The notes under the pieces: generated by a model
What the model was told of the DNA's origin: nothing
The model's input: only the letters and a program-made list of their open reading frames with translations
The model's database searches: none
Made by a program: the position numbers and the translations under genes
In this document: positions 7,856 to 29,474 of the stretch, one piece after another
Layout: the number at the start of each line of letters is the position of its first letter
Position numbering within the stretch: the first letter of the stretch is position 1
Source of the DNA: Vibrio penaeicida
Lineage (GTDB): Bacteria > Pseudomonadota > Gammaproteobacteria > Enterobacterales > Vibrionaceae
DNA: 64,000 nt
Assembly: GCF_019977755.1 (NCBI RefSeq)
Contig: NZ_AP025144.1
Location: forward strand, 124,001 to 188,000
Reading direction: 5' to 3'

Positions 7856-7877
7856 AGATAACGTCTCTAATAGTTGT

Positions 7878-9358: not shown

Positions 9359-9378
9359 AGGACGAGACAATTCTATCT

Positions 9379-9413
9379 AAAAAACCAGTCAGCTATTGCT
9401 GACTGGTTTTTTT
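9379..9413. terminator. Strong bidirectional terminator
   Basis: Stem AAAAACCAGTCAGC / GCTGACTGGTTTTT with loop TATT and T-run on both strands. It terminates the DUF1566 gene transcribed towards it and isolates it from the IS66 relic. Confidence 0.9.
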
Positions 9414-9420
9414 ACTACTG

Positions 9421-13948: not shown

Positions 13949-14149
13949 ATGAATGGTTTCACCAACCTTCTAAAACGCTACTTTAAAGATGAAAGTGGCG
14001 CTACAGCTATTGAATACGGAATTCTTGCGGCAGGTTTAGCTGCGGGGATCTTGGCGATTTTTGGTTCTGACGGTCTATTCATCACCGCTCTAAAAGATAA
14101 GTTCCAGGCCATTATTGACGGTATGAACATGGGTGCCAGTGGAGAGTAA
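13949..14149 (+). CDS. flp: Flp-type pilin
   Basis: Major subunit of the Tad pilus, 66 residues. It has the short leader ending KDESG and the Flp motif ATAIEYG immediately after the predicted TadV cleavage site, followed by a hydrophobic helix LAAGLAAGILAIF and a short C-terminal tail. AAGGA precedes the ATG. It is the first gene of a thirteen-gene locus in the order known from Aggregatibacter. Only one pilin gene is present here. Confidence 0.95.
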   Translation: MNGFTNLLKRYFKDESGATAIEYGILAAGLAAGILAIFGSDGLFITALKDKFQAIIDGMNMGASGE

Positions 14150-14579
14150 TTTCCTTTTATTACTCAAAGCCACCACTTTTGCTCTGTTATGCATAGTTTC
14201 ACTGACTGACATAAGAAATCGAACAGTCCCAAACTGGGCGTTATTGATACTGGCGATTGTGGTGTTCACTGCAGTCCCGTTTAGCGTTTATCACGCCACC
14301 ATTAGTTTGATCATTTTGTTTCTAGGCATTGTTGCCTTCCACTATCGTTGGCTAGGGGCTGGTGACAGTAAGCTGCTGGCAATATGCGCCTATGGCTCCA
14401 TCGAACATTGGCAGTGGTTGTTACTGCAAACCGCTTTGGTAGGTGGAGGATTAAGTATAGCCATTCTCGTATACAACCATTTAGTCGGATTGGGTTTGAT
14501 AAAACACTCCCCTATAAAAACGGTGCCTTATGCCGTCGCAATTGCTGGCAGTGCCATAACAACCATTCACTACATTTAA
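14133..14579 (+). CDS. tadV: TadV prepilin peptidase
   Basis: Aspartic prepilin peptidase (CpaA/TadV family) that cleaves Flp and the pseudopilins TadE/F; inner-membrane, 148 residues. The two catalytic aspartates are in SLTDIRNRTVPN and in GAGDSKLLA (the GxGD motif). Multiple hydrophobic helices are present. The GTG chosen overlaps the end of flp by 17 bases; a second GTG two codons later is equally possible. Overlap suggests translational coupling. Confidence 0.92.
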   Translation: MPVESNFLLLLKATTFALLCIVSLTDIRNRTVPNWALLILAIVVFTAVPFSVYHATISLIILFLGIVAFHYRWLGAGDSKLLAICAYGSIEHWQWLLLQTALVGGGLSIAILVYNHLVGLGLIKHSPIKTVPYAVAIAGSAITTIHYI

Positions 14580-14592
14580 AAAAGCAAACACC

Positions 14593-15486
14593 ATGAAAAA
14601 GTTACTTTTTGTGCTCATTAGCATAGGTTTACTACTCGTTACGCTAATGTTTGTCTGGTCAAATACGGCGGCAACGCCAGTATCAAAAACAGAAGAACAG
14701 GTCAAAGTAGAAGAACCTAAAGCGATTGCTCCAAGGATTTTGGTTGCCAAATACCCTATTCAAGTCGGTTCTTTACTTCGCTCTCAGGATTTCACCTGGG
14801 CACCGTTCGATGACTCTGAACATCAATTGATTGATCTGTTTTTAAAAGATTTTGTCGAACTCAAATCATTAGAAGGCAGCTTGATCACTCAATCCCTTGT
14901 CGCTGGTCAGCCTTTAACCTCCTCTGTCATTATCCGACCGGAACAAAGCCATTACCTCTCTTCTATGCTTGCTCCTGGGATGAAAGGCGTCACCTTAGAT
15001 ATCACCTTTGCTGGTAGCAATTACGGATTAATTCGAGCAGGTAACTATGTCGATATCCTCTTAACCACTTCCAAAAAACATCAAGATGAAGAAGGGTTTG
15101 GGGAAGTGACTAAACACGCTAACAACTTAGTTTTAGAAAATGTTCGCTTGCTAGCGGTAGACAATGTTTTGACCGACATCCTGAGTGGTCCAGAGAAACA
15201 AGATCCATCAAGTTCACTCAATCAAAACGGGGAGCGCACGGTCCCGGTCACTTTTGAAGTGACGGCCGATCAAGCGCAACGTTTGCTGCTGGCTCGTAAG
15301 CTTGGTGCTTTGTCTCTTTTACTTCGTAGCGCCTATCAAGATGCAAGCCTAGCTCAATCAGACAACGTCACGCTATGGGATGAGGAAATTTCTGATAACC
15401 ATAATCCGCGCATGCGGCCACAGCACTCTATCCGAATTTTTGACGGTCAGGATGTCCGTACACAAGAAAAACCGACAGCGAGATAA
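14593..15486 (+). CDS. rcpC: Tad pilus assembly protein RcpC/CpaB
   Basis: Periplasm-facing assembly protein of 297 residues with an N-terminal membrane anchor (LLFVLISIGLLLVTLMFVW). A SAF-like domain follows (PRILVAKYPIQVGSLLRSQDF, LVAGQPLTSSVI), then the CpaB region beginning LAPGMKGVTLDI and RAGNYVDILLT, and a VTFEVTADQAQRLLLA block. Thirteen bases after tadV, four bases before rcpA, so firmly inside the operon. It is thought to work with the secretin RcpA. Confidence 0.92.
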   Translation: MKKLLFVLISIGLLLVTLMFVWSNTAATPVSKTEEQVKVEEPKAIAPRILVAKYPIQVGSLLRSQDFTWAPFDDSEHQLIDLFLKDFVELKSLEGSLITQSLVAGQPLTSSVIIRPEQSHYLSSMLAPGMKGVTLDITFAGSNYGLIRAGNYVDILLTTSKKHQDEEGFGEVTKHANNLVLENVRLLAVDNVLTDILSGPEKQDPSSSLNQNGERTVPVTFEVTADQAQRLLLARKLGALSLLLRSAYQDASLAQSDNVTLWDEEISDNHNPRMRPQHSIRIFDGQDVRTQEKPTAR

Positions 15487-15489
15487 CTC

Positions 15490-16908
15490 ATGAACACTTT
15501 CAAAACACTCTGTATATGTGTGCTGACACTGCTTTGCTCTGCTCAGGTCTATGCAAAAGTTAACACGCTAGAAATCTCCGTTAACGAAAATCGTTTAATT
15601 GCTGTTTCCGGTGAGGTGCAAGACATCTTTGTGTCTGATCCTGACTTACTTGTTGTACATGCTCCCTCCAGTCAACACATTATGATTGCGGGTAAAAAGT
15701 TAGGGGAGACAGACATACTTGTCCTTGGTGCTAACGCTTCTACATTGGCTCATTACAAAATTGTGATCAGCGTTGATATCTCTGATCTGGAGCAAAATGT
15801 CCGACATGCTTTCCCTGATGCTAGCGTCTCCTTTGCCTACAGTGGCGGGGCTATTATTGCAATGGGAGAAGTATCGACACCATTGCAAGCTCATGAAATT
15901 CTCAGCATGGCTTCTGGTTATGCGAAATCTCTTCAAGAAGAAGATACACAAACCATGGGCGCGCCTTCTTCACAGGACGGGAATGGTGCTAGGGCAAACG
16001 GAGCAGCGAAGCCTGGCGGTGGTATGGGTACTTACCCGTTAGTGGTTAATCAACTAAAAACCGCAGGAAGCACGCAGGTTAATATCTCCGTACGTATCGT
16101 CGAGATGGAGCGGACAACCAGTGAACAACTGGGTCTGAGATGGAGCTCTGTTGGTAACATGCGTTGGGGTACTTGGGACAGTTTGCAAACCGCTCTTGGG
16201 GTAACGCCAGGCAATAAGTTTCCTACTAACAACTTGCCTAGTGGACCCGATCAGCATGGTCTAAACGTGATCATTGATGCCTTAGTCGAAAACAGTCTAG
16301 TGAATGTCCTTGCTGAGCCTAATCTAACGGCTAAGTCTGGAGAAGCTGCCACCTTTATGTCTGGAGGAGAATTTCCCTTCCCTGTCGACAATGGCGACGA
16401 CGGTGTCAGCATTGAGTTTAAAAAGTTTGGTATCGCTTTGGAGTTGACGCCAACCGTACTGAGCAACAACCAGATCAGTCTAACGGTTGCGCCAGAAGTA
16501 TCGACGTTAAGCCGTGAAAACAGCGTCTCCATTGCCGGTGTTGAAGTACCGGGAATCGAAACCCGCCGAGCCACCACTACCATCGAACTGGCAGATGGAC
16601 AAAGCTTTGCGCTAGCCGGCTTAGTTCGCACCTATCAAGATCATAAAGTGGAAGCTTTGCCTTTTCTTGGCGAAATCCCTGTACTGGCCCCTTTTTTTAG
16701 TAACAACAGTTTCAAAAACTCAGAAAGTGAGTTGGTTATTATTGCCACTGCCCGATTAGTCGAACCCACAAGTGATCCCTCTCTTCTTACCACACCTCTG
16801 GATCGTTACAGACCAGCGAGTCGTTTTGAGCGCGTATTCCTGCAGAAAACAGGGGAAACACACGATCAAAACAGCAGGTTGTTTGGCAACTACGGTTACA
16901 ACTATTAG
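15490..16908 (+). CDS. rcpA: Tad outer-membrane secretin RcpA/CpaC
   Basis: Forms the outer-membrane channel for Flp pili, 472 residues. A signal peptide ends at VYAK. The N-terminal region carries the BON-like ENRLIAVSGEVQDIFVSDPDLL block typical of CpaC. The secretin domain includes VNISVRIVEMERTTSEQLGL, LAEPNLTAKSGEAATFMSGGEFP, GIALELTPTVL and the end motif LPFLGEIPVLAPFFSNNSF. Length and order match the family. Confidence 0.95.
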   Translation: MNTFKTLCICVLTLLCSAQVYAKVNTLEISVNENRLIAVSGEVQDIFVSDPDLLVVHAPSSQHIMIAGKKLGETDILVLGANASTLAHYKIVISVDISDLEQNVRHAFPDASVSFAYSGGAIIAMGEVSTPLQAHEILSMASGYAKSLQEEDTQTMGAPSSQDGNGARANGAAKPGGGMGTYPLVVNQLKTAGSTQVNISVRIVEMERTTSEQLGLRWSSVGNMRWGTWDSLQTALGVTPGNKFPTNNLPSGPDQHGLNVIIDALVENSLVNVLAEPNLTAKSGEAATFMSGGEFPFPVDNGDDGVSIEFKKFGIALELTPTVLSNNQISLTVAPEVSTLSRENSVSIAGVEVPGIETRRATTTIELADGQSFALAGLVRTYQDHKVEALPFLGEIPVLAPFFSNNSFKNSESELVIIATARLVEPTSDPSLLTTPLDRYRPASRFERVFLQKTGETHDQNSRLFGNYGYNY

Positions 16909-16913
16909 GAATC

Positions 16914-17477
16914 ATGATGAATCAATTAAAACTTTGTTCAGTGGCTTTGTTGTTGCCTGCACTGGTCGCTTGTGTCGCACCAAATCAAGTACTTCCGCAT
17001 CATAGTTACACCGACACGGCTGAATTTAACGCTGACAGGGAAACACTGCCTGTCGTGTTAGATCAGTTAACCGCGCCCCTTATTCATCGAGAAGAAGTGG
17101 GAGAGATAAACATTACTCTGCAAGGCGGCTTGCTTAGTCAATCAGAAAAACAAGAGATTGAAAGCCACCTATCAAACAAACTCTTAATGCAAGTAGAGCT
17201 GGATCATACCCCTAGTGTGGAGGAAACCATGCAGGGAGATATCGAAGTGATTTTTGCGCCGGATACGTGTCGATACAATAAATCTGCTGTTCCTGTGAGT
17301 CCTCAAGCCTGCCAGCAATTGCGCAATCAGTACGCCAGTGCCAGCGATAAAATGGCATGGCATCAGGGGAATATCTACCAAGAGCATAACACTGCACTAT
17401 CTGCCGGTGCTGTTCAAAGACTTTACAACAACAAAATCAAATCTGCGGAAAAGCAGTCAGTAACCGGAGAGGATTAA
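16914..17477 (+). CDS. rcpB: RcpB-like Tad lipoprotein
   Basis: Putative outer-membrane lipoprotein of 187 residues in the rcpB position between secretin and tadZ. The signal sequence ends LVAC (lipobox). The mature part is poorly conserved; it contains INITLQGGLLSQSEKQEIE and a pair of cysteines (DTCRYN, PQACQQL) that could form a disulfide. Assignment rests mostly on gene order; the family is thought to gate or stabilise the RcpA channel. AGGA precedes tandem ATGs. Confidence 0.8.
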   Translation: MMNQLKLCSVALLLPALVACVAPNQVLPHHSYTDTAEFNADRETLPVVLDQLTAPLIHREEVGEINITLQGGLLSQSEKQEIESHLSNKLLMQVELDHTPSVEETMQGDIEVIFAPDTCRYNKSAVPVSPQACQQLRNQYASASDKMAWHQGNIYQEHNTALSAGAVQRLYNNKIKSAEKQSVTGED

Positions 17478-17480
17478 CCC

Positions 17481-18599
17481 GTGTCAGACAGTACGTTTAA
17501 CGTCGTTGCTTTTGTATTAGACGACCACAGTCAACAAATCATCACTCAACTGGCTGCCGACATTGATAACCAGAATATTCAGGTACAAAAAGGCGACATT
17601 AACAAGGCAAGAGAGTGGTGTACAAAACATGGCGCCCCCGACCTTTTGTTGGTTGATGGAGGTGACTGTGTCAACTTAGACAGCGCTCTTAGTGAGCTAT
17701 CACATCATTGCCCTCCTCAGATGAAGTTGATCGTTCTGGGGAAAAAGCAAGAAGTGACCCTTTATCGCCACTTAATGTTTGCCGGAGTGAATGATTACCA
17801 CACAACTCCTCTTGATGCCGATGCACTGAGACTGAGTTTGCTTCATCTTCAAGGTCATCAGGTGAAAAAATCCCTACGTACGGGCAAAGTCATCTGTGTT
17901 CTTGGTAGTTCAGGCGGCTGTGGTGTCAGTACTATTGCCAGCAACTTAGGCTACTATCTTGCAGAAAAGCAAAGTCAGCACGTTGCGCTTGTCGACCTTG
18001 ATGTCTTCCATAGTCAGCACCCTATTTTACTTGGCACCGACTATGAACCCAATTTAGAAAATATTCTAAAAGATGCGGATCGTATTGACGAAACTCTGCT
18101 CGCTCACAGTAGCCATCAGTTTTCAAAAACACTGCACCTGTTTTATGGTCAAGATAGCCAGTTACCCTCCGACAATCATGGCTCGATAACTGAGACCATT
18201 CAGGCTCTGGCAGAGCACTATGGTACGGTGATTATTGATATACCCAACCTCCATAATCCAGCCATGTTAGACGTCATTGAAAAAGCCGATAACTGTATTT
18301 ACGTCACCGATTACAGCCTTAATAGTTACCGCTTTTTAGCCAAACTTAGAGCGCGCGTTCAATCGACACATCAAAGACAGATTTTGGTGGGTAATTTGTG
18401 CAGAAAAAGTAAAGGGCGAGTGCCTAAGACTGAACTGAGTAAGTCTCTAAGCTTAGACTTGTCCCTTGAGTTCCCTTTTGATGCCAAAGCGTTTGAAAAG
18501 TCAGAACTGGTAGGCAAACCTATTATGTCTCAAAGTACTCGATTCAGTAAAAAGCTTGCTCAGCTAGGCCAAATGGTCAGCTCGGCAGCAAAAAGGTAA
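17481..18599 (+). CDS. tadZ: TadZ/CpaE pilus localisation ATPase
   Basis: MinD/ParA-like protein that places the Tad machine in the cell, 372 residues. An N-terminal receiver-like (atypical response regulator) domain spans about residues 1-120. The ATPase domain starts VICVLGSSGGCGVST, a deviant Walker A in which the usual GGVG reads GGCG, followed by VALVDLDVF and VIIDIPN. GTG start with GGAGAGG upstream. Three bases after rcpB. Confidence 0.9.
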   Translation: MSDSTFNVVAFVLDDHSQQIITQLAADIDNQNIQVQKGDINKAREWCTKHGAPDLLLVDGGDCVNLDSALSELSHHCPPQMKLIVLGKKQEVTLYRHLMFAGVNDYHTTPLDADALRLSLLHLQGHQVKKSLRTGKVICVLGSSGGCGVSTIASNLGYYLAEKQSQHVALVDLDVFHSQHPILLGTDYEPNLENILKDADRIDETLLAHSSHQFSKTLHLFYGQDSQLPSDNHGSITETIQALAEHYGTVIIDIPNLHNPAMLDVIEKADNCIYVTDYSLNSYRFLAKLRARVQSTHQRQILVGNLCRKSKGRVPKTELSKSLSLDLSLEFPFDAKAFEKSELVGKPIMSQSTRFSKKLAQLGQMVSSAAKR

Positions 18600-18605
18600 T
18601 TGCTC

Positions 18606-19904
18606 ATGTTTAGACAAAGCAGCCTTGCGCCCAAGCAGAGAACTCATCAACTGTTAACCATGTCAGATGAGGCGAAAAGTGCCTTTTATGAGCTGGTTGA
18701 TCCATCGGTTGCCGCTAACCTAAGCAGAGATGAGTTGCTACCGAGAGTCCGAGAAGCTTTAGCTAATATTGCTTCAAAAAAAATGCTGCCATACAACAAT
18801 CAGGAATTGGCTGTTCTTGCGCTTCAATTGGTTGATGAAATGGTGGGCATTGGCCCGATTCAACCTTTGTTAGAAGATCCAAGTGTTTCAGACATTTTAG
18901 TGAACGGCCCTGATACTGTGTATGTGGAGCGTCAGGGTATTCTACAAAAAACCGACATTCGATTTAGGGACAGTAAGCATGTTTTGAACGTCGCTCAGCG
19001 TATTGTGAATGCAATAGGGCGAAGAGTGGATGAGTCAAACCCTATGGTTGATGCAAGACTTAAAGATGGCAGCCGAGTAAACGTCATCGCTCCGCCACTT
19101 GCATTACACGGTACCTGTATCTCTATCCGTAAATTTCCAGCCAACAAAATGATGCTGGATAGCCTGGTGAGCAAACAGAGTTTGTCTTCCCAAATGGCTG
19201 ACTTTTTGGCCATCGCAACACACTGCCGCTGCAATATCCTTATTTCAGGAGGAACGGGTTCAGGTAAAACAACCCTGTTGAATGCGTTGAGTCGACATAT
19301 CAGTGAAGACGAACGCATCATTACCATAGAAGATGCAGCAGAGCTCTCTTTAGCACAGCCGCACTGGGTTCCTTTGGAAACTCGTAACGCGAGTACGGAA
19401 GGGAACGGAGAGGTGAATGTTCGCGATTTGGTCAAAAACGCACTTCGTATGCGTCCAGATAGAATTGTTTTAGGTGAAGTTCGTGGGGCGGAAGCCTTTG
19501 ATATGTTGCAGGCGATGAATACGGGACATGACGGCTCGCTTTGTACTCTTCACGCAAACAACCCCCAAGATGCCATTGTTCGTCTAACAAACATGTTGCA
19601 AATGGGTGGTGAGCGACTGTCGGATCAAATCATACGCAGTCAAATTGTCAGCGCTATCGATGTCGTTGTGCAACTGGAAAGAATGAGAGATGGGCATCGC
19701 CGTATTACCGCCATCAGTGAAGTCGTAGGGAGCCAGGGCGAGCACATTGAGCTCAAGCCGATTTTCCGTTTTGATCTCAAACGCGCGGATAAACATCAGA
19801 TACACGGTGACTACAACGTATTCAATGTCTCTGAAGCCCTGCTAGAAAAAGCCTCTCACTTTGCTCTGGAAGAAGAGATGCAAACCAGCGTGGAGAAATC
19901 ATAG
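18606..19904 (+). CDS. tadA: TadA/CpaF secretion ATPase
   Basis: Hexameric ATPase energising Flp pilus assembly, 432 residues. Walker A ISGGTGSGKTTLLN, Asp box (IITIEDAAEL), RMRPDRIVLGEVRGAEA (Walker B region) and the His box SLCTLHANNP are all intact. The N-terminal region LLEDPSVSDILVNGPDTVYV is typical of CpaF. I chose the ATG at 18606 over a TTG six bases earlier; spacing from AAGG fits better. Confidence 0.96.
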   Translation: MFRQSSLAPKQRTHQLLTMSDEAKSAFYELVDPSVAANLSRDELLPRVREALANIASKKMLPYNNQELAVLALQLVDEMVGIGPIQPLLEDPSVSDILVNGPDTVYVERQGILQKTDIRFRDSKHVLNVAQRIVNAIGRRVDESNPMVDARLKDGSRVNVIAPPLALHGTCISIRKFPANKMMLDSLVSKQSLSSQMADFLAIATHCRCNILISGGTGSGKTTLLNALSRHISEDERIITIEDAAELSLAQPHWVPLETRNASTEGNGEVNVRDLVKNALRMRPDRIVLGEVRGAEAFDMLQAMNTGHDGSLCTLHANNPQDAIVRLTNMLQMGGERLSDQIIRSQIVSAIDVVVQLERMRDGHRRITAISEVVGSQGEHIELKPIFRFDLKRADKHQIHGDYNVFNVSEALLEKASHFALEEEMQTSVEKS

Positions 19905-20803
19905 TGGCTTTGCTGATTGGAATCACCTTGGTGTGGTTAATCGCCGGTGCCTTTGCCTGGCATCATATAGAAAAGCAGGACGGTTGGAAAAAACAGCTCG
20001 GCCGATACACCTTAGTGGCACTGTCCCAAGATCAGGAGAGCGTCGCTCCTTTCTGGGAGCGTTGGCAATGGTTCCAAAACTTGGTGACCTTTCTGGGGTA
20101 TGAAAAGCTTCGTCAATGGGCGGCGGGTGGCATAGTCGCGCTGGTGGCTTTTTCGACTCTGCTGATTATCAACGGCATGGATTGGTACGTATCCATTCCA
20201 TTGAGTGCCGTCAGTATTGGCTTAGCCGGCTATTTTTTCTATCTTCAGCAACAACAAAAAGCCATGGACCATTTTCGTAATGAGCTGCCAGACATCATCG
20301 ATGGTTTGTTAAGGGCGTTACGTGTTGGCGCTCCAATGGCGGATACCTTTCTTGAAATATCTCACCAGCACGATGGCATCACTCGACGTCTGTTTGAACG
20401 AATGCACGATGAGCTCAGTGTCGGTCAGACTTTACCTGACGTAATGAAGCATGCTGCGAAAAGAATGCCTATTGCTGAGTTTCGATTCTTAACCATAGTA
20501 CTGAGTCTGCAACAAGAAACCGGTGGTCGCCTGACAGGCGTACTGGAAAGACTCAGTCATACATTAAGAGCCCGAGCCGAACTTAATGCCAGCATTCTCA
20601 GCATTACATCTGAGTCCCGTAACTCAGCTAAAGTACTGGCGGCTCTACCTGTTCTGGTCTGTTTAGTGCTGTTTACCACAGGCAAAGAACACTTTGACTT
20701 TTTAATGGCTTCAACGGGAGGGCAACTTGTTATGGCATATGTCGTCACTAGCATTCTGTTTGGCCTTTTTCTCATTCGACGTATGACACAGTTAAAAGGA
20801 TAA
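19904..20803 (+). CDS. tadB: TadB inner-membrane platform protein
   Basis: One of two T2SS-F-type integral membrane proteins of the Tad system, 299 residues. Hydrophobic helices lie near the start, at about 75-115 and at the C-terminus. The T2SSF domain block PDIIDGLLRALRVGAPMADTFLEI and LTIVLSLQQETGGRLTGVLERL match TadB. GTG start overlaps the tadA stop by one base (TAGTG), indicating coupling. Confidence 0.92.
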   Translation: MALLIGITLVWLIAGAFAWHHIEKQDGWKKQLGRYTLVALSQDQESVAPFWERWQWFQNLVTFLGYEKLRQWAAGGIVALVAFSTLLIINGMDWYVSIPLSAVSIGLAGYFFYLQQQQKAMDHFRNELPDIIDGLLRALRVGAPMADTFLEISHQHDGITRRLFERMHDELSVGQTLPDVMKHAAKRMPIAEFRFLTIVLSLQQETGGRLTGVLERLSHTLRARAELNASILSITSESRNSAKVLAALPVLVCLVLFTTGKEHFDFLMASTGGQLVMAYVVTSILFGLFLIRRMTQLKG

Positions 20804-20808
20804 GTATC

Positions 20809-21729
20809 ATGGAACTGACCACTATCCCCAACTTTTGGATTGTCTCATTGGCATTGGTGATGATTTTCATCCTTGTGTTAGCGACTTTTTTCTTGTCTCA
20901 GCAAACCCTTGCGCGTTGGCAGGAACAGTGTGCACGATACACAAAAATCAACGACGATGAAGACGTCGGCGTTGCCCAACAAACTCCGTCATTCTGGAGC
21001 TCGTTAGGGGTGCTGTATCCGGTATCAGACAAAGAGAAAAAACGCCTTGTTCAAATGTTAGAACAAGCGGGGATACAATCACCAACTGCACTGAACTCAA
21101 CACGAGGTGCCAAGCTGTTTCTTGGCTTGATGGCGGCCGTTATTGCCCTTTTTTGGCGTTGGTCTCAAGAAGAGCTTCTTGAAGCCATGACCGTCATGTT
21201 TATTTTAATTAGCTATGTACTTGGTTCAAACCTTCCGGAGTACTGGCTGAAACGTTTGGCCCGCCAAGCGATACAAAAACAACAACAAGTGGTTCCAGAC
21301 GCCATCGATCTGATGGTTATTAGCGTAGAAGCCGGATTGTCTCTTGAACGTGCCTTGGAAAAAGTCGGCACATACCTACTTGATGTGGAACCCATGTTAG
21401 CCAACCAGTTTTTGCGTACCCACGCTGAGATCCAAGTGCGGGGAGAATCTTCTGAGTGTCTGAAAAAACTGGCATGGAGAACCGGATTAAAAGAACTTGA
21501 GCGTTTGGCAAGCACCATTTCTATGGCCGAGCGATATGGTTCTCCTCTTGCGGAAACCATGAGAACCATCAGTGATGATGCGCGCCAAATGAGAAAAATG
21601 GCCCTTCAGGAACAAGCCGGTAAGCTGCCAAGTCGCATTACCTTGATTCAAATGGCGCTTATTATGTTGCCTCTGCTTGTTCTTATCATTACCCCAACAA
21701 TGAACCTATTACTAGAGAGCTTACGATGA
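20809..21729 (+). CDS. tadC: TadC inner-membrane platform protein
   Basis: Second T2SS-F-type platform protein, 306 residues, partner of TadB. N-terminal membrane helix, PDAIDLMVISVEAGLSLERAL, RTGLKELERLASTISMAERYG and the ending KLPSRITLIQMALIMLPLLVLIITP are characteristic. The end overlaps tadD by four bases. Confidence 0.92.
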   Translation: MELTTIPNFWIVSLALVMIFILVLATFFLSQQTLARWQEQCARYTKINDDEDVGVAQQTPSFWSSLGVLYPVSDKEKKRLVQMLEQAGIQSPTALNSTRGAKLFLGLMAAVIALFWRWSQEELLEAMTVMFILISYVLGSNLPEYWLKRLARQAIQKQQQVVPDAIDLMVISVEAGLSLERALEKVGTYLLDVEPMLANQFLRTHAEIQVRGESSECLKKLAWRTGLKELERLASTISMAERYGSPLAETMRTISDDARQMRKMALQEQAGKLPSRITLIQMALIMLPLLVLIITPTMNLLLESLR

Positions 21730-22496
21730 GTTCATTTTTTACCTTTAAAGGCCTAGCCTCCATTTACCTTTGTCTTATGCTGCTAGGCTGCGCAACGCCG
21801 CAAAAAGTGAACAAACAGACGGAAAATAACGAAAAAGTTCTGGCTGAAGCTTCCTTTAACTACGGACAATTTGCAAAGGCTGAAGAGCAGTACTTAAGGC
21901 TGCTTAGCGCATACCCAGACAAACTGGAATATCAGCTTATGCTTGCCCGAAGCCAGTATAACCAAGACAAAAAAGAAGCGGCTATCGCCAAACTAAAACA
22001 CGTCACCTTAGCTGAAGATCCTATCGCTGCCCAGGCTAGTATGTACTTAGGTCGTTATCTTCTGGCAGCAGCAAGAGTGCCAGAAGCCATTGCCGTCTAT
22101 GAACTGGGGGTCAGCAAGGCGAATAATAATCGTATTAAGGCTCGACTTCATAACGGGCTAGGCATCGCTTTACTGGAGTTTGATTTAGAACGAGCTCGTT
22201 CAGAGCTCACCCAAGCTGTCGCCCTTGCCCCCGACAATCCTCATTATCGCTCCAATTTAGCGCTTAGCTATCTGCAGGACAATCAGTTGGCTAAGGCACG
22301 ACAGACTTTTGAGCCTTTGTTGGCGTATCAGCAGTTGCCTATTCAGGTCGAGCTTAACTTTGCCCTATTACTTCTGGCAGAAGGCGATGAAGATCAAGCT
22401 CGGGCTCTGTTAACTCGTCATTTACCAGCCAGTGAAGTGGAAAGAGATCTGTCGATACTCAAAGGTCGTTTAAATGGCTCAGGAACCCTACTATGA
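21726..22496 (+). CDS. tadD: TadD TPR lipoprotein
   Basis: Tetratricopeptide-repeat lipoprotein of 256 residues that supports secretin assembly in other Tad systems. Lipobox MLLGC follows a hydrophobic signal. TPR-like helical pairs run through most of the mature protein (ASFNYGQFAKAEEQYLRLLS, GLGIALLEFDLERARSELTQ, NLALSYLQDNQLAKARQTF). Starts inside the tadC stop (ATGA) and ends inside the tadE start. Confidence 0.9.
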   Translation: MSSFFTFKGLASIYLCLMLLGCATPQKVNKQTENNEKVLAEASFNYGQFAKAEEQYLRLLSAYPDKLEYQLMLARSQYNQDKKEAAIAKLKHVTLAEDPIAAQASMYLGRYLLAAARVPEAIAVYELGVSKANNNRIKARLHNGLGIALLEFDLERARSELTQAVALAPDNPHYRSNLALSYLQDNQLAKARQTFEPLLAYQQLPIQVELNFALLLLAEGDEDQARALLTRHLPASEVERDLSILKGRLNGSGTLL

Positions 22497-22963
22497 CAAG
22501 CTCGTCAAAACGGCAAAAAGGGGTGATCAGTCTTGAAACCGCTTTTTTGATGCCTGTTTTTCTCGGGATCACTTTGATGTTTTTTGATGTATCGCGGCTC
22601 CATCTTCAATACGGATTGCTCGAACATGCCATGCGTCAATCTCTTCGCGAACTGCTTACAGAAAATTGGTACAACAACCCTTTAACCAGCGGGAAAGTAA
22701 AACGTATGGTTGAAGAGCACGGCTTTGGATTTCTCGACTCGGTCACCATTGAACTGATCAAGTTTGATTCGATGGATGCCCTGTTGCAAGTGGAAGATGA
22801 AGAAGAAGAGGTTGACCCTATTTATCGTCCTTCTGATCCCGTTTACCGAGTGACGGCCACCTTGACGACTGAGTTGAAATTTAGCCCGCTGGGCTTCTTT
22901 GAACCTGAAAAACTCAAACAAACCAGTACCGTCATTATTTCTCAGGATTTATTGTTTAACTAA
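22493..22963 (+). CDS. tadE: TadE pseudopilin
   Basis: Minor pseudopilin of 156 residues. A short leader ending KRQKG is followed by VISLETAFLMPVFLGITLMF, the TadE-like hydrophobic helix with Glu at position 5 after the predicted TadV cleavage. Overlaps tadD by four bases. Confidence 0.9.
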   Translation: MTSSSKRQKGVISLETAFLMPVFLGITLMFFDVSRLHLQYGLLEHAMRQSLRELLTENWYNNPLTSGKVKRMVEEHGFGFLDSVTIELIKFDSMDALLQVEDEEEEVDPIYRPSDPVYRVTATLTTELKFSPLGFFEPEKLKQTSTVIISQDLLFN

Positions 22964-22965
22964 CT

Positions 22966-23463
22966 ATGTGCATAAAAAAGCTACGTCAGTCCGGTCTCCC
23001 TTCCAGAGCCAAAGGAAGCATAAGTCTAGAGATGGCCATGATTGCTCCTATATTACTGACCATCATACTGGCTTCGTCGGAGCTACTCACCATCATGCGT
23101 GTTGAACAGAGACTCATTAACTTAAACTACAACATACTGACACTGGTCGGAAATCAGAGAACACTAACAAGAGAGAACAATATCGCTCAGCTTCCTTATT
23201 TCCGTGACTTTGCAGAAACCCAATTAGAGTTTATAGCCAAAGGGCAAGCTGGCTTATCCATTGCCACTTATAATGCCGCAACCGATGAAACCACCGTTAT
23301 TTTACTTGATGGTCGCTGCCCATTGACCAAGCGTTGGCCGGATTTTGCATTAGGGAGTTTGGTCGAAGTCACCCTATGTTTTGACCCTGAAGAGACCAAT
23401 CCAATTTGGAACCTGTGGCCGAAAGGTCGTTTTTCTTCAAGCATGATCCGAGAGGTCAACTAA
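22966..23463 (+). CDS. tadF: TadF pseudopilin
   Basis: Second minor pseudopilin, 165 residues. Leader ending RAKG, then SISLEMAMIAPILLTIILAS. The two downstream cysteines (GRCPLTKRW, VTLCFDPEE) could pair. Two bases after tadE and one before tadG. Confidence 0.88.
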   Translation: MCIKKLRQSGLPSRAKGSISLEMAMIAPILLTIILASSELLTIMRVEQRLINLNYNILTLVGNQRTLTRENNIAQLPYFRDFAETQLEFIAKGQAGLSIATYNAATDETTVILLDGRCPLTKRWPDFALGSLVEVTLCFDPEETNPIWNLWPKGRFSSSMIREVN

Positions 23464-23464
23464 G

Positions 23465-24853
23465 ATGGGTACTTTACAAAGACACAAACAGCGGGGCGTT
23501 ATCTCTGTATCAACCGCTCTGTTTCTGTCCGGCATGCTCACATTTTTTAGTTTTGTTCTGGTGGTCATTATTTCAAGCATCACCGACAGCCGACTCTCTA
23601 TGCTGGCCGACTCCATCTTGTATTCAGCTTCAGACAGTCATACTTCCGCTCTGGATGCCCAGCAGCTTTTGGAAGCGAACATAGAGTCAGATACTTCTGG
23701 ATTAAAAGATCCTACGGCGTCACTGCATAAACGGGAAAGCGATGCCTCGGTTAGCGTAAAAGGGACGGTGGACTTAGATCAACTGGTGCTCACGGACCAA
23801 CTTCAAACCGGCAATTTAGATATAAAACATCACGCAAAATCCCAACTTCATCAATTGACCCTAGAAATAGCCGTTATGCTGGATGTGTCTGGTTCCATGA
23901 TGGACAAACCTATGGAGCAAGCATTAAAAGGTCTACGAGATTTTGCTGATATTCTCTATGCACAAGAGAGACGTAACTTAAGTAAAACCGTTAGCATTGT
24001 TCCAGCGACTGGCTATGTCAATATTGGCCTTAGACCTGAGTTTTTTAAGCCTAGCGCCATCAAGGTTCCCAGAGGTCTTAAGCCTTTGTTTAAGGAAATG
24101 CGCTGGAGGGATCTGCTGAGCGATAAGATACCAGATCGTTGGCGTGGAGCCATGTGTACCCAGCTCACGGAAGTTCAGGAAGGTTTATCTAACGCCAGCG
24201 CCATGACACCAACTTGGATTAGAAACTTAGAGCGTGGCCCACAACATCAGGATCTCAGGTTTGTTTTGCATACCGCTTTTCCTCCTGGGGTACCGGAATT
24301 TCAAGATGGCACGCCACTGTTAGAGTTTTATCCAAAAGACAATAAAGATCCCTATCGTCCTAACTGGAAACATTTACTGGCTCTATTTGATAATTCCGAC
24401 TGTGGTGTCAGTAAGGTTCTACCTTATTTGTCCAACCATAAAGAACTCGTCAGAGGGCTTAAAACAATGTATCCAGAGGTGAGCACCAATAATGCTGAAG
24501 GAATTGTTTGGGCTTGGCGTTTACTCTCTCCAGAATGGAGAGGAAAATGGGACAAGAAAAAATCCGAGCTGCCTAGAGATTACGGTTTGCCTAACAATAA
24601 AAAAGTGATGATCTTGTTTACTGATGGCGATCACTTAACCGACCCTAAAATGCGTGACCGGAAACAAGTCTCCCTATGTCGAGAGATGAAAAAGAAAGGC
24701 ATTGAAATCATCGCCATTGACTTCAATAATCGCTCTCAATCCATGAAATCGTGCGCCAGTCCGGGCCGGTACTTCCCTGCCAACAACCGAACCATAAGAA
24801 CAGTGCTTCAACAAGTAGCTACCACGCTTAACAAGATTGAACTGGTGAAATAA
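23465..24853 (+). CDS. tadG: TadG, von Willebrand factor A-type pilus protein
   Basis: 462 residues. N-terminal membrane helix (ALFLSGMLTFFSFVLVVIIS), then a VWA domain with MIDAS residues in MLDVSGSMMDKPM and ILFTDGDHLTDPK. Expected to act on the outside as an adhesin-like or assembly component. It is the last gene of the locus; a hairpin follows. Confidence 0.9.
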   Translation: MGTLQRHKQRGVISVSTALFLSGMLTFFSFVLVVIISSITDSRLSMLADSILYSASDSHTSALDAQQLLEANIESDTSGLKDPTASLHKRESDASVSVKGTVDLDQLVLTDQLQTGNLDIKHHAKSQLHQLTLEIAVMLDVSGSMMDKPMEQALKGLRDFADILYAQERRNLSKTVSIVPATGYVNIGLRPEFFKPSAIKVPRGLKPLFKEMRWRDLLSDKIPDRWRGAMCTQLTEVQEGLSNASAMTPTWIRNLERGPQHQDLRFVLHTAFPPGVPEFQDGTPLLEFYPKDNKDPYRPNWKHLLALFDNSDCGVSKVLPYLSNHKELVRGLKTMYPEVSTNNAEGIVWAWRLLSPEWRGKWDKKKSELPRDYGLPNNKKVMILFTDGDHLTDPKMRDRKQVSLCREMKKKGIEIIAIDFNNRSQSMKSCASPGRYFPANNRTIRTVLQQVATTLNKIELVK

Positions 24854-24859
24854 ATCACG

Positions 24860-24892
24860 CAGCCTCTTAGTTTACTAAGGGGCTGACTTTAT
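24860..24892 (+). terminator. Terminator of the tad operon
   Basis: Eleven-pair stem CAGCCTCTTAG / CTAAGGGGCTG with one wobble and loop TTTA, followed by ACTTTATT. The T-run is weak, so termination may be partial. Confidence 0.6.
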
Positions 24893-24906
24893 TATTCCTG
24901 CACAAG

Positions 24907-25128
24907 GTACAACCTTTCATTCCTCAAGATCTCTCCAATATTGGGTACGACAATATTTATCAATCAGACTTGAGTTATCCCAAGCTTACAACCGTCGACA
25001 TTCCGCTGAACACCATTGCCACGCAGGCACTGGATGGTATTCAAAGAAAGTTTGATGAAAAAGACGCGTTGTGCGAAATCAAAATCAAACCCCGCTTAGT
25101 GATTCGAGGATCGGTGTCCAACGTATAG
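24907..25128 (+). pseudogene. C-terminal fragment of a LacI/GalR-family regulator
   Basis: A 73-codon frame reads FIPQDLSNIGYDNIYQSDLS, PKLTTVDIPLNTIATQALDG and KPRLVIRGSVSNV then stop. These are the last strands of the LacI/GalR ligand-binding domain. No DNA-binding domain and no start codon precede it; the tad terminator is only a few bases upstream. It is therefore a stump left by a deletion or insertion. A small hairpin terminator follows. Confidence 0.8.
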
Positions 25129-25131
25129 TAG

Positions 25132-25152
25132 AAGGACGCTAGGGTCCTTTTA
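25132..25152 (+). terminator. Small terminator behind the LacI fragment
   Basis: AAGGAC / GTCCTT stem with loop GCTAGG followed by TTTA. Probably the terminator of the former regulator gene. Confidence 0.5.
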
Positions 25153-25585
25153 CGTCGCTCTATACACATTCAGCATCTTTTCCCTTTCTATTGAGTTTTT
25201 TGTTATTTTACATTTTGAAATATATATAATTATCAAAATGTTAAAGTGCTTTGAACTTCATTTTAGCCGTTACTATCGACACCTGACTGAATTTTCGTGC
25301 TTCTTGGAATTAATTCTCTTTAAGTCACCATTAAGTTGATGTTAACAGCTTAATATCTCTGTGTTTTCAACATTTTATTCTTAAAAAACAACACCCTGTT
25401 GTTTCATCTTGAAAAGTTGAGCTCTGCCGCACGCATTTATAAAACAAGTTGTTGTAAGTTTTGTTGTGTATAGCATCAATTCCGCGTAAGCACTGCCATA
25501 TCGACGTGTTAAAAGCCCAATTATCCCTAATAAATCCATGTGATTTTAGGGAAGTAGTTAATTGACTTTTCATTAAGGGACTATT
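25153..25585. other. AT-rich leader region of the exporter-oxidoreductase-aminotransferase operon
   Basis: No gene is recognisable in these 433 bases. They must contain the promoter for the following three-gene operon. I saw no convincing operator or riboswitch. Confidence 0.5.
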
Positions 25586-26785
25586 TTGTTTAAAAATATT
25601 GATTTGCCTGGTTTATATAAGAATTCATCTTCTTTATTTATGAACAAACAGGTTCTGGCTATTTTCCTTCTTGCGAGTGCAAGTGCAGCAGTTAATCCCT
25701 ATAAAAATATATTTGGTATTGATGTTGTTGGCGTCTCCGAGCTTTCTTATAGCTTGGTGATGTTATTCTCTGGAATAGTCATAACAATATTCAGTATTTT
25801 CTTTGGGATGCGATCTGATATAAATGGTAGCTTTGTTAAGTACATTTATATTTGTGCATTCTGCGGTATTGTCGGTAACCTCAGCCTGTATTTTTGGCCG
25901 AATGAAATAGTCTATTTTGTTGCTAACTGCTTACTTCTGCCTGTCTTTTTTGTTATCAACTCACTGATATTTGGGTATGCGGCAGCAAAGCGTCAAAACG
26001 TTGAAGGCAACGACCAACATAAAGAAAATGCAGCGTTGCGATCAGTGTACTCAATGGGCTATGTGGCTACACTAGGTGTGATTGGCTCTTTAGCACTAGA
26101 AAAAAATCAACTCATATATGTATGGCTGTACGCAGGTATCTTTGCTGCCCTTATCTTAGGGGTATTTTCTAATGAACCCTTAAAAAACGTCGAATATAAA
26201 TCAGATAAGGCATCTGAATCATTATTAAAAGTATTTAATAAAGAAAATGTGATTAAATTAATCAGTGTTTCTCTTGTCACCAATATGCTTTTTACATTAG
26301 ACGCCACGGTACCACTTATTATCGTTAATCAAGTTCAAGGTGGATATTCGGGTATTGGTGCTTTTGAAGCCAGTATTGCTATTTTTGAAGTGTTCTTTAT
26401 TTTTTATTGGTCGCGTTTAGCATCCAAAATGCAACCATCCAGTGTCATTATTATCGGTGCAGTGATATTCGCTATTTCTATTGCGTTACTTTCCTTCACA
26501 CAAACCATGACGCATATTTATTTACTCATCCCTATGCTTGCACTTGGTGCTGCGTGTTTAATCAGTATTCCTATTGGTTTCTTGCAATCGTTGGCAACAG
26601 GTCGTGCTGGTGTGGGTGGCTCGTTACTTTCCATCTCTTTCTTTATTTCTTCGTCAGTGTCCTCTGTGGTCTATTTCGTGGGTATGTATTACTTCGAGAC
26701 CAAAGGGGCTATTTGGTTATCGTCCATCGTTGGACTGGTTGGCTTGCTCGTACTGTATTTCATTGACAGAAAGAAACACCAATAA
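25586..26785 (+). CDS. MFS transporter, possibly SetA-like sugar efflux type
   Basis: Integral membrane carrier of 399 residues with about twelve hydrophobic helices, the size of sugar-efflux permeases of the SetA type. Recognisable features: an FGMRSD loop after helix 2 (variant of the MFS motif A), a central hydrophilic loop (about 190-220) and LSISFFISSSVSSVVYFVG near the end. The TTG at 25586 has AAGGGA five bases upstream; an internal ATG at codon 19 (FMNKQV) is the main alternative. It is the first gene of an operon with an oxidoreductase and an aminotransferase, so I infer export of their product. Direction of transport is not provable from sequence. Confidence 0.8.
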   Translation: MFKNIDLPGLYKNSSSLFMNKQVLAIFLLASASAAVNPYKNIFGIDVVGVSELSYSLVMLFSGIVITIFSIFFGMRSDINGSFVKYIYICAFCGIVGNLSLYFWPNEIVYFVANCLLLPVFFVINSLIFGYAAAKRQNVEGNDQHKENAALRSVYSMGYVATLGVIGSLALEKNQLIYVWLYAGIFAALILGVFSNEPLKNVEYKSDKASESLLKVFNKENVIKLISVSLVTNMLFTLDATVPLIIVNQVQGGYSGIGAFEASIAIFEVFFIFYWSRLASKMQPSSVIIIGAVIFAISIALLSFTQTMTHIYLLIPMLALGAACLISIPIGFLQSLATGRAGVGGSLLSISFFISSSVSSVVYFVGMYYFETKGAIWLSSIVGLVGLLVLYFIDRKKHQ

Positions 26786-26805
26786 AAATAATACAAGGAG
26801 AAAGT

Positions 26806-28176
26806 ATGAGTAACCTATGTGTAGTAGGTGGTGGTTTATCGGGGTTAGAATTTGCCCTCTATGCCGCAGTAAGTGGAAAGCGTGTACATATTTATGAAGC
26901 GGGTCCAAGCCTTCGTCAAGAACACGTGCATTTTGATACCAGAATACTAACGGGTGATGAAAAATTAAGACCTTGGACGGCGAACAACCATTGGGGACAA
27001 GGGGGGATCAGTGAGCGGCTTGGTGGACGGTCACTTTGCTACCACGGGGTTATGTTGCCTCTTGAGGAGGCTGCACTTGCCTCATGGCCTAAGAGCTGGC
27101 AACAGATCTTGGCGGGAAAGAATGGCCTATATCCAGAGTTAACCCAAGGCTTTTCTTCTCAATTTCCTGAGATGACACCTTCCAACCCAGTTGCGGATTT
27201 CTTAACACATGTGCCTCAGGCTGCACGATTTATGGAAGATGGCCGATTCACTTCCTACAGCCCAATGCACTCCCTAGAGAGCTTTATCCGAGACGGCGTA
27301 ATTACCATCGAGCGCGCTAAAATTGCGAAGGTGGCAAAATCAAATGGTCAATTTTATCTAACAGACACCAGCGGTAAAACCGTGAACCAGACAGGATTCT
27401 CAAAGTGTGTGCTGGCGGCTTCTGCGATGGTGAACAACGCTATAATCGCTAGCTCGATTGGGCAAAGCTTTACGTCTGAACTGACGGATCATTACTGTTT
27501 GGGTATTGCGGTCAAAGTAAAAGAAGGAACCGAAATAGGTGCCTACAGACACGAAATGCTGTGGCATGGCTACAGTAAGCACCACGACCTGAACGCCAAT
27601 ATTTTTGTGGTTGAGCGACCTAGAACGCCTGATGGCGACAGGTTGTTATTGCTGATGGCGGTAGTAGAACAAAACCCAGAAGATTCACCGTTGAGCCAGT
27701 TGCGCTGTCAAGTCAGTGGTGGCAAAGCAGAGCTTGCGATCGACGCTCACCATTCTGAGCGTGATATCGATAACTACAACAAAGTTGCTAATAGATTAGT
27801 GGAATTTGCTCGCGAAAAGCTGAATGCGGATCTGCGTGCTTTATCCCCTACTGAAGATGAAAAACAAGGCAAACACTTCAAATCTTTTGCTGATTCATCC
27901 ATTCAAGATGAATTCGACATTGCGCTCAATAGTTTAGATACCACTTCTCAAACCAATGTCTTTACTCGGTTCACCTTTCCTTATGGTGCTTACGAACATG
28001 AAAGCGCTTGCCACCCGCTGGCAGGAAAAGGTGTTAACGCATTAACCGAGGAACTTGAGTTAGCCGCGATGCCTGGGCTGTATGCCATTGGCCCCGGTGC
28101 GTTCCCAAGGCTAGGCATTGCAAACCCTGCACTGACGATTTGTGCTATGTCCCGTTGGCTAGCATCACATATTTAG
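26806..28176 (+). CDS. FAD-dependent GMC-like oxidoreductase
   Basis: 456 residues. Rossmann FAD-binding motif VVGGGLSGLEFALYAAVSGK at the N-terminus, the GMC-like flavin-contact block WGQGGISERLGGRSLCYHGV (about 64-83), and a C-terminal FAD/substrate segment GLYAIGPGAFPRLGIANPAL. These resemble flavin enzymes that oxidise alcohols of sugars or cyclitols (for example the 6'-dehydrogenases of aminoglycoside pathways); that likeness is from memory. AAGGAG lies before the ATG, twenty bases after the MFS gene, and nine bases separate it from the aminotransferase. The gene order suggests it makes a carbonyl group that the next enzyme aminates. Substrate unknown. Confidence 0.8.
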   Translation: MSNLCVVGGGLSGLEFALYAAVSGKRVHIYEAGPSLRQEHVHFDTRILTGDEKLRPWTANNHWGQGGISERLGGRSLCYHGVMLPLEEAALASWPKSWQQILAGKNGLYPELTQGFSSQFPEMTPSNPVADFLTHVPQAARFMEDGRFTSYSPMHSLESFIRDGVITIERAKIAKVAKSNGQFYLTDTSGKTVNQTGFSKCVLAASAMVNNAIIASSIGQSFTSELTDHYCLGIAVKVKEGTEIGAYRHEMLWHGYSKHHDLNANIFVVERPRTPDGDRLLLLMAVVEQNPEDSPLSQLRCQVSGGKAELAIDAHHSERDIDNYNKVANRLVEFAREKLNADLRALSPTEDEKQGKHFKSFADSSIQDEFDIALNSLDTTSQTNVFTRFTFPYGAYEHESACHPLAGKGVNALTEELELAAMPGLYAIGPGAFPRLGIANPALTICAMSRWLASHI

Positions 28177-28185
28177 GAATAGAAA

Positions 28186-29415
28186 ATGAGTAATAAAACC
28201 TTAGCATTATTAGGTGGTGAGCCGATTGTTTCTGAGCCGCTTCCAGCGTGGCCGAGTTTGGATAAATCGGTACTGGGAGACATTGAGAACATTTTAGAAA
28301 CCGGAGAAATTAACTACTGGACGGGCAACCGAGGTCGCCAGTTTGAGGCCGATCTTGAATCTTACCTTGGTGATGGTCATGTGATCACGACCACCAATGG
28401 CACGTCGGCTTTGCATACGGCATTCACCTCCTTGGGTATCAGTGACGGCGACGAAATAATCTGTCAGCCATACACGTTTATTGCCTCTGCTTTTTCCATC
28501 ATGCAAGCCGGTGCTAAACCTGTTTTTGCCGATGTGGACGAAAGCCACACATTGGATGCCAGTAAGCTAGAGCGTCATATTACGCCAAAAACCAAAGCCA
28601 TTCTTGTTGTCCATACTTTTGGTGTACCCAGCGATATGGACGCTATCAATGCCATTGCAAAAGCTCATAACTTGCTGGTGATTGAAGACTGTGCGCAGGC
28701 ACTAGGGTCGCAATACGATGGTCAGCTATTGGGTACCGTGAGTGATGCAGGGTGTTTTAGCTTCTGTCAAAGCAAGCACATCACCACTGGTGGTGAAGGC
28801 GGTGCGATTTTTGTCGGTTCTGAAGATCTAGCGTGGAAATGTCGTTCGTTCCGAGACCACGGCTTTGATGTTGAAAAGCGACTGCACCTGTTTGAATTGG
28901 AACAGAAGCTGCCCTACATTCACGTGAGATTGGGTTTCAACTTCAGAATGACTGAGATTCAATCGGCGATTGGCATCAAAGAGTTAGCGAAGTTTAACAG
29001 TGGTAATTTAGAACAGCGCATCAAGAATGGTAAGCGTTTGACTGCTTTGTTGGAAGAGCATCCTTTGGTGTCACATCTGCCTATTGACGATGAAAAGAGA
29101 GTGAACTCTTACTGGTGGGCACCGTACATTTTGGATATGTCTCTGCTGGATTGCGACATCAAAACGTTTGCTAATGCGATGGCTGCTGAAGGGGTACCTG
29201 CGTACCCTGTTCCTTGGCCTGAGATCTATAAAGAGCAAGCGTTTGCCAATATGGAGGGGTCACCTTCATTAGAAGAATGGCAAGCGGATTGCCCGATGGC
29301 AAAAACGCTCGGTGAAACTACGTTGGTATTTCACACGCACCCAGTGTACGACGAACATTTGATGGAAGCCTTCTACGCCGCCTTTAACAAGGTGTACGAA
29401 CATTATAAAAAATAA
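28186..29415 (+). CDS. DegT/DnrJ/EryC1/StrS-family PLP aminotransferase
   Basis: 409 residues; transfers an amino group to a keto sugar or keto cyclitol in this family. Motifs: NGTSALHTAF (PLP phosphate binding), PYTFIASAFSIMQAGAKPVFADVD, IEDCAQALGSQY with the PLP-pyridine Asp, and SFCQSKHITTGGEGGAI with the Schiff-base Lys. The N-terminus LALLGGEPIVSEPLPAWPSL and the length of about 410 recall the subgroup of scyllo-inosose / AHBA-type enzymes rather than the shorter LPS sugar aminotransferases. Last gene of the operon; terminator follows. No other LPS or capsule genes are nearby, which argues for a small diffusible product. Confidence 0.85.
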   Translation: MSNKTLALLGGEPIVSEPLPAWPSLDKSVLGDIENILETGEINYWTGNRGRQFEADLESYLGDGHVITTTNGTSALHTAFTSLGISDGDEIICQPYTFIASAFSIMQAGAKPVFADVDESHTLDASKLERHITPKTKAILVVHTFGVPSDMDAINAIAKAHNLLVIEDCAQALGSQYDGQLLGTVSDAGCFSFCQSKHITTGGEGGAIFVGSEDLAWKCRSFRDHGFDVEKRLHLFELEQKLPYIHVRLGFNFRMTEIQSAIGIKELAKFNSGNLEQRIKNGKRLTALLEEHPLVSHLPIDDEKRVNSYWWAPYILDMSLLDCDIKTFANAMAAEGVPAYPVPWPEIYKEQAFANMEGSPSLEEWQADCPMAKTLGETTLVFHTHPVYDEHLMEAFYAAFNKVYEHYKK

Positions 29416-29441: not shown

Positions 29442-29474
29442 AAAAGGAGCGCCTAATGAGGCGCTCCTTTTTTA
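29442..29474. terminator. Bidirectional terminator
   Basis: Stem AAAAGGAGCGCC / GGCGCTCCTTTT with loop TAATGA and T-run; shared between the aminotransferase operon and the convergent hdfR. Confidence 0.9.

Follow-up and report, generated by a model that had tools for sequence, protein, structure and literature searches.

A compact three-gene operon of Vibrio penaeicida that possibly makes and exports a small amino sugar

The window, a stretch of 64,000 nucleotides of the Vibrio penaeicida genome, contains three forward-strand open reading frames of 399, 456 and 409 amino acids, separated by gaps of 20 and 9 bases (Table 1). A first-pass annotation described them as three close genes with a terminator of their own, which was borne out by these gaps and by a terminator-like hairpin downstream of the last gene. 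Seven such hairpin sites were found in the region versus 5.5 in shuffled sequences, and the one listed here was the longest. A sub-threshold match to the Rfam family sraL at the operon end (23.6 bits versus 39) was regarded as chance. No promoter-like site was detected by a scan of the conserved 5' region, nothing convincing as an operator conserved across genera was seen in the aligned 5' regions of nine loci, and no series of attC-like repeats indicating an integron cassette array was present in locus L025.

Table 1. Features of the three-gene cassette and its borders (positions in the window).
Position	Strand	Feature	Basis
25506..25585	+	Short 5' region that Vibrio sp. S9_S30 shares with the window, together with the cassette	DNA homology between the window and locus L003 from 25506 on
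in 25506..25585	+	AAGGGA, Shine-Dalgarno-like, 5' of the TTG start	Read from the sequence
25586..26785	+	MFS transporter, 399 aa, TTG start	MFS_1 (PF07690), 41.9 bits, above cut-off
26806..28176	+	FAD-dependent GMC-type oxidoreductase, 456 aa	Alignment A1, fold matches, profile match
28186..29415	+	DegT/DnrJ/EryC1/StrS PLP aminotransferase, 409 aa	DegT_DnrJ_EryC1 (PF01041), 295.4 bits versus cut-off 19.8; alignments A2 and A4; fold
29442..29471	+	Terminator-like hairpin 3' of the aminotransferase gene	13-pair stem, 7 G-C pairs, T-rich tail

The same three-gene order was found again in other genera, a recurrence that the first-pass annotation had proposed to look for, and the pairwise identities of the three proteins correlated at 0.94–0.98 among 11 taxa. 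Since the order recurs and the identities correlate, the cassette is more than a chance arrangement. Twelve genomes matched before exclusions; two of them (G096 and G249), whose match was limited to 37–53 N-terminal residues, were set aside, leaving ten carriers, four Vibrio and six of a second genus. Photobacterium halotolerans is one species that carries the cassette. The dN/dS values were 0.027 for the MFS gene, 0.050 for the flavoenzyme gene and 0.036 for the aminotransferase gene. Class and phylum samples yielded no further carriers, the single hits for the flavoenzyme (1/369 at E ≤ 1e-40) and the aminotransferase (1/369 and 1/398 at E ≤ 1e-90) being the window's own genome, and none of 54 pattern stretches from a scan of viral contigs was related to the cassette. 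The unit looks compact and mobile, and it occurs in a small number of bacteria from marine and soil habitats. A search for close homologues of established role found none, but the close relatives are all uncharacterized.

The flanks were read gene by gene in the window, L003, L018 and L025, and L026–L030 were compared as DNA alone. None of the four flanks read contained an O-antigen or capsule cluster, in agreement with the earlier statement that no LPS, capsule or sialic-acid genes adjoin the cassette, which argues against an operon that always lies inside such a cluster. A LysR gene, whose top NCBIfam match is HdfR (196.9 bits, under the cut-off of 240), adjoins the cassette. It was rejected as a dedicated regulator, because it stands with its maoP-like neighbor but without the cassette in all six other Vibrio loci read (six of the nine non-carriers with a match) and because no LysR relative occurs in the six second-genus loci. 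A sugar-type LacI remnant was also observed upstream, at 24880–25125.

The second protein gave only generic FAD/Rossmann matches in Pfam (best, DAO, 31.4 bits) and no match to GMC_oxred_C. Among six relatives scanned with the latter model, P0044 and P0071 passed, P0002 and P0056 fell below the cut-off, and P0005 and P0010 gave no match. As two relatives pass and the predicted structure has the overall GMC fold, the previous assignment to GMC-like FAD oxidoreductases stands. An N-terminal GxGxxG FAD-binding motif (G8, G10, G13) is invariant in the 17 sequences of alignment A1, as are H398 and N440, which a profile match aligns to positions 440 and 484 of the bacterial glycoside 3-oxidase 7qf8. 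This His/Asn pair is reported to be essential there (PMC10646112). The model has a pLDDT of 82 and a pTM of 0.87, with residues 53–69 and 394–397, just before H398, below 50. Its nearest folds are those of sugar oxidases of the pyranose oxidase/glycoside 3-oxidase type, namely PsG3Ox (7qf8/7qfd) and MtCarA (7dve), but its identity to solved bacterial sugar oxidases is 14–18%, and Foldseek TM-scores are about 0.5–0.6. The fold leaves the substrate unfixed, since Z declines slowly towards pyridoxine, choline and other GMC oxidases (22–23); oxidation of pyranose sugars at C2 or C3 would be a candidate activity. No signal peptide is evident, the first strand starting at residue 3, and the enzyme is apparently cytoplasmic. 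Its relatives are named hypothetical, NAD-binding or GMC protein, and nothing more.

In the third protein, K197, which we take to be the catalytic lysine, is invariant in 20 aligned sequences; the model (pLDDT 81, pTM 0.84) falls below 50 at residues 195–203 and 228–251. Membership of the DegT/StrS family was upheld, whereas the proposed scyllo-inosose/AHBA-like subgroup was split between two lines of evidence. By sequence, the top solved relative is the UDP-sugar aminotransferase Pcryo_0638 (219 bits), with 163 bits for a chain named glutamine--scyllo-inositol transaminase by its depositors, 146–149 bits for the 2-deoxy-scyllo-inosose enzymes BtrR and RbmB, and 116.5 bits for AHBA synthase. 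By fold, BtrR ties with the top row (Z 43.0 versus 43.6), RbmB lies 1.1 below it, and both have the lowest rmsd of 50 rows (2.0–2.3 Å). Among the 120 matches listed of 7235, a large group at 50–56% identity contains many named members from Lentisphaerae or Planctomycetes. A defense role was dismissed, the defense library giving weak DndA/SspA matches alone. The product of Pcryo_0638, UDP-2-acetamido-4-amino-2,4,6-trideoxyglucose, and relatives at 36–38% identity in polysaccharide-type clusters of one Deinococcus and one Sphingomonas plasmid would suit a role in nucleotide-sugar or glycan modification together with distant polysaccharide genes. We consider this role highly improbable: no glycosyltransferase, epimerase or LPS gene lies beside the cassette in the four flanks read, NCBIfam nucleotide-sugar aminotransferase models reach half of their cut-offs or less (PseC, 208 versus 423.5), and, to our knowledge, such aminotransferases do not usually have an MFS partner.

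The first protein was earlier called an MFS transporter of SetA-like size; the family holds, but the SetA likeness is faint, as TIGR00899 scored 35.5 bits, far under its curated cut-off of 522.3. Of the 19 relatives listed from 8000 candidates scored, 16 were at 49–99% identity, and several lie on contigs equal in length to those found for the other two genes; the protein apparently belongs to a cassette-specific family. Its direction is probably export. Of the four annotated neighborhoods of distant relatives (28–30%) that were read, three look catabolic, which would fit uptake as well as export: RidA, MurR/RpiR, SDR and beta-N-acetylhexosaminidase genes in Rhizobium and Sinorhizobium, with ROK in one, and genes for RpiR and SDR proteins in the third. 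Together with the LacI remnant, they are consistent with import of an amino sugar or glycoside that the two enzymes would modify or degrade. Such a catabolic role nevertheless appears unlikely, given that the cassette lacks a kinase, a hydrolase, a dehydratase and a regulator of its own, that the LysR and maoP-like pair exists independently of it in the six other Vibrio loci read, and that a GMC oxidase with a DegT aminotransferase follows the logic of amine synthesis.

A product of the aminocyclitol type was also put forward in the first-pass annotation. The flavoenzyme would oxidize an imported cyclitol (myo-inositol or methyl-inositol) to an inosose, which the DegT enzyme would convert into an inosamine for export, as in rhizopine synthesis. 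In the mosBCDEF locus of Sinorhizobium meliloti L5-30 (PMC6668481), MosDEF, probably a membrane-bound complex of three gene products, performs FAD-dependent hydroxyl oxidation of ononitol (inositol in an engineered version), MosB a PLP-dependent amination with glutamate, and MosC membrane transport. The three roles are alike, although the likeness is one of role and the cassette has one GMC protein instead of MosDEF; no MosDEF-type extra dehydrogenase subunit lies next to the flavoprotein gene in the window, L018 or L025, and no mos locus, looked for through MFS relatives, was recognized in the few plasmid neighborhoods inspected among 1047 and 232 matching records. The fold tie with BtrR points the same way, as does a streptidine-like cluster on plasmid unnamed2 of Streptomyces sp. 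NBC_00853, where a broad-family GMC protein (25% identity over 99%) lies near a DegT aminotransferase. Unlike the cassette, this cluster adds "streptomycin biosynthesis" and amidinotransferase genes, and no MFS relative was present in the 17-kb stretch read. Inositol-1-phosphate synthase, whose model matched 6 of 14 control genomes, was missing in nine of the ten carriers and present in G297. The IolE cut-off of 290 was reached by none of the ten, and five of the six second-genus carriers gave no match whatever. The IolE-like matches of the four Vibrio carriers (191–196 bits) and the synthase of G297 speak for this version, and the Vibrio carriers may use inositol. With these markers, the sugar-oxidase fold of the flavoenzyme and the lower BtrR/RbmB scores by sequence, an aminocyclitol product seems rather unlikely.

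Our tentative reading, which we hold to be only slightly less probable than its opposite, is that the operon makes a small exported amino sugar. The oxidation, amination and export core proposed earlier is supported by the stand-alone conservation, the catalytic residues and the folds, export being the presumptive part. The substrate would be a sugar or glycoside in free, unactivated form. In view of its fold and catalytic residues, the FAD enzyme would remove a hydride at one of the secondary hydroxyl groups, most likely that of C2 or C3 as pyranose oxidase and glycoside 3-oxidase do, to give a keto-sugar; the DegT enzyme would aminate the ketone, probably with glutamate or glutamine as donor; and the MFS protein would send the amino sugar out. 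Products that would suit this scheme are an aminodeoxyglucose resembling kanosamine or an amino-trehalose. A search of the literature on trehalosamine found nothing. The cassette would be inherited and transferred between genomes as a single block.

Comparable chemistry is known elsewhere. The compact NtdCAB/KabCAB operon of Bacillus oxidizes and aminates a sugar phosphate to give the amino sugar kanosamine, but with a glucose-6-phosphate 3-dehydrogenase and a phosphatase in place of flavoenzyme and transporter (PMC8788734), and in gentamicin biosynthesis, the FAD dehydrogenase GenQ and the PLP aminotransferase GenB1 act in turn on a carbohydrate, but at C6' of an aminoglycoside, with GenB class III transaminases rather than DegT, and within a large cluster (PMC4039129). 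PsG3Ox and MtCarA serve C-glycoside breakdown (PMC10646112, PMC10807413). Neither a Gfo/Idh-type dehydrogenase nor a phosphatase gene of the NtdCAB type is found in the cassette. We know of no bacterial pyranose oxidase or glycoside 3-oxidase paired with an aminotransferase, nor of an earlier pairing of a single-gene GMC flavoenzyme with a DegT aminotransferase; each enzyme type is already known, and their combination looks new. More broadly, that this is a minimal, horizontally moving operon joining its own transporter to a newly paired GMC/DegT couple, for an exported amino sugar or aminocyclitol, we judge to be evenly balanced.

If the product were confirmed, three genes would suffice for a cell to produce and secrete a new amino-carbohydrate, and the pathway would therefore be easy to express, test and use. 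In marine bacteria, the product could serve as a rhizopine-like private nutrient, a signal or an antimicrobial. Within the literature covered (the enzymes, rhizopine, kanosamine and trehalosamine), a confirmed product would place amino sugars of the rhizopine or antibiotic kind in marine Vibrionaceae too and give a first role to this flavoenzyme family. Actinobacterial relatives occur in Glycomyces niveus, Micromonospora chersina, Lentzea xinjiangensis and Nocardia sp. GAS34; plasmid searches for actinobacterial neighborhoods returned Eleftheria as the sole result. Finally, cousins of the flavoenzyme–aminotransferase couple occur on one metagenome contig, where the flavoenzyme falls within the identity range of named actinobacteria, and the couple may thus represent an ancient module for natural products of the amino-carbohydrate type.

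The three genes of the cassette are separated by intergenic gaps of 20 and 9 bases and are followed by a strong terminator-like hairpin, as described in the first-pass annotation. The annotation had also placed no LPS, capsule, or sialic-acid genes beside them, and this held within the window, where none was seen when the ORF lists were read by eye (ORFs of at least 100 aa, and of at least 250 aa in a second reading). A Tad/Flp pilus-type locus lies to the left, and LysR, maoP-like, DMT transporter, rmuC, ubiE, ubiJ-like, ubiB, and tat genes lie to the right (names assigned by eye); the LysR protein was nearest to HdfR, with a score under the model cut-off. In the stretches compared, nucleotide identity of the window was 96–97% to Vibrio penaeicida 6E01 and 95–96% to TUMSAT-NU1.

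Features of the cassette and its left border (positions in the window)
Feature	Position	Strand	Remark
Tad/Flp pilus-type locus	~6401–25505		names by eye
LacI/GalR-type regulator, C-terminal piece only	24880–25125	+	Peripla_BP_3, E 8e-10, profile 101–167 of 167
MFS transporter gene	25586–26785	+	ORF list; TTG start
Near-consensus sigma-70 site	26763–26792		11/12, spacer 18
FAD oxidoreductase gene	26806–28176	+	ORF list
DegT-family aminotransferase gene	28186–29415	+	ORF list
Strong terminator-like hairpin	29442–29471

The sugar-binding regulator piece, which has the Tad locus on one side and the cassette on the other and no adjoining DNA-binding part, is a remnant. At 37.5% GC, the MFS gene is AT-rich; its third-position GC is 0.35, versus 0.44–0.51 in the other eight genes measured. 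The sigma-70-like site at its end, ahead of the flavoenzyme gene, may be due to chance or may be an internal promoter, since five such sites were found in the region versus 11.1 expected from shuffles.

A full-length flavoenzyme was found in 10 of the 296 genomes of the window's family, a count that leaves out two genomes (G096 and G249) with matches of 37–53 residues, and all 10 carriers have the three genes in the same order (the other three Vibrio carriers were read as loci L002–L004). Six carriers, among 52 genomes of that genus, are Photobacterium, with gaps of 36–38 and 10–12 bases. The first-pass annotation had suggested seeking this order elsewhere; the betaproteobacterium Eleftheria terrae also has it, on a replicon of 737 kb, with gaps of 18 and 10 bases and annotations of MFS, hypothetical protein, and DegT. 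Judged by identical lengths of the longest contig, a proxy as distinct from a gene-by-gene contig reading, all three genes would lie on one contig in Aliikangiella coralliicola (326445), Photobacterium sp. GJ3 (3603274; G110, already among the 10 carriers), and one further source (121519), and two of the three in six further sources (1764289, 5655, 9195, 14310, 47571, and 1795691). The unit is rare: the window's own genome was the sole match to the flavoenzyme profile (E ≤ 1e-40) among 369 sampled genomes of the class, and to the aminotransferase (E ≤ 1e-90) among 369 genomes of the class and 398 of the phylum.

The pairwise identities of the three proteins correlate at 0.94–0.98 across 11 taxa, and therefore the proteins travel together; the three genes are a real unit that stays together. 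Compared with Vibrio sp. S9_S30, dN/dS was 0.027 for the MFS transporter, 0.050 for the flavoenzyme, and 0.036 for the aminotransferase. In that strain (L003) the right flank is shared with the window and the Tad locus is absent at this site; the stretch from a YhiN-like flavoprotein gene to the cassette holds ABC-transporter genes (by eye). The left side is thus a variable insertion site. DNA comparison of the Photobacterium loci showed flanks common to L025–L028, with which L029 shares the cassette alone and L030 the cassette and 0.8–2.3 kb located several kilobases off; L030 and L029 share three pieces of 0.35–2.3 kb.

The best reading is that an unactivated sugar would be oxidized to a ketone by the FAD flavoenzyme, the ketone would be aminated by the DegT PLP aminotransferase, and the product would be exported by the MFS transporter, a direction that we infer because the two enzymes follow a synthetic logic. 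FAD oxidation and PLP amination of carbohydrates were shown for GenQ/GenB1 (PMC4039129). Taken as a whole system, the nearest analogue is rhizopine synthesis (mos; PMC6668481), in which MosDEF, a probable FAD dehydrogenase complex, oxidizes ononitol, MosB performs the amination, and MosC is a transport protein. Among the papers listed in searches of the open-access literature, which were directed at the enzymes and at rhizopine, kanosamine, and trehalosamine, none joined these parts in such a cassette. Its chemistry and protein families are known, and their combination, with its own transporter, is new to us.

The SetA-like label previously given to the transporter was unsupported by a curated SetA-type model. 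Of the 19 database relatives listed (8000 candidates scored), 16, at 49% identity or more, apparently form a cassette-specific family, and the rest are at 24–28%. All but Eleftheria and one Loktanella of the 232 plasmid records with a match belong to Rhizobium and kin. Two of five neighborhoods opened in the latter contain RidA, RpiR, SDR, and beta-N-acetylhexosaminidase genes and look like amino-sugar catabolism; one other had RpiR and SDR, one was unrelated, and one was without annotation.

A sugar is favored over a cyclitol as the substrate because of the fold result, because inositol-1-phosphate synthase was not found in nine of the 10 carriers, and because none of the 10 reached the IolE cut-off (five gave sub-threshold matches, the four Vibrio carriers at 191–196 bits). 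A cyclitol is still a live alternative: the modelled DegT protein ties in fold with BtrR, a 2-deoxy-scyllo-inosose aminotransferase, a distant GMC relative of the flavoenzyme lies within a streptidine-like cluster, and no synthase would be required if the cyclitol were imported.

The remaining carrier, G297, has an inositol-1-phosphate synthase gene (G297:C17:130123-130449) on the contig that bears the cassette, some 66 kb away from it. On a plasmid of Streptomyces sp. NBC_00853 (L020, 4421–9467), genes for a DegT aminotransferase, a "streptomycin biosynthesis protein", an inosamine-phosphate amidinotransferase, and a GMC oxidoreductase, possibly a flavoenzyme of a streptidine oxidation step, lie in a row. 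Methyltransferase, sugar phosphate isomerase/epimerase, glycosyltransferase family 9, and radical SAM genes lie near a 25% flavoenzyme relative on a Roseibium aggregatum plasmid (L019, 7986–9410).
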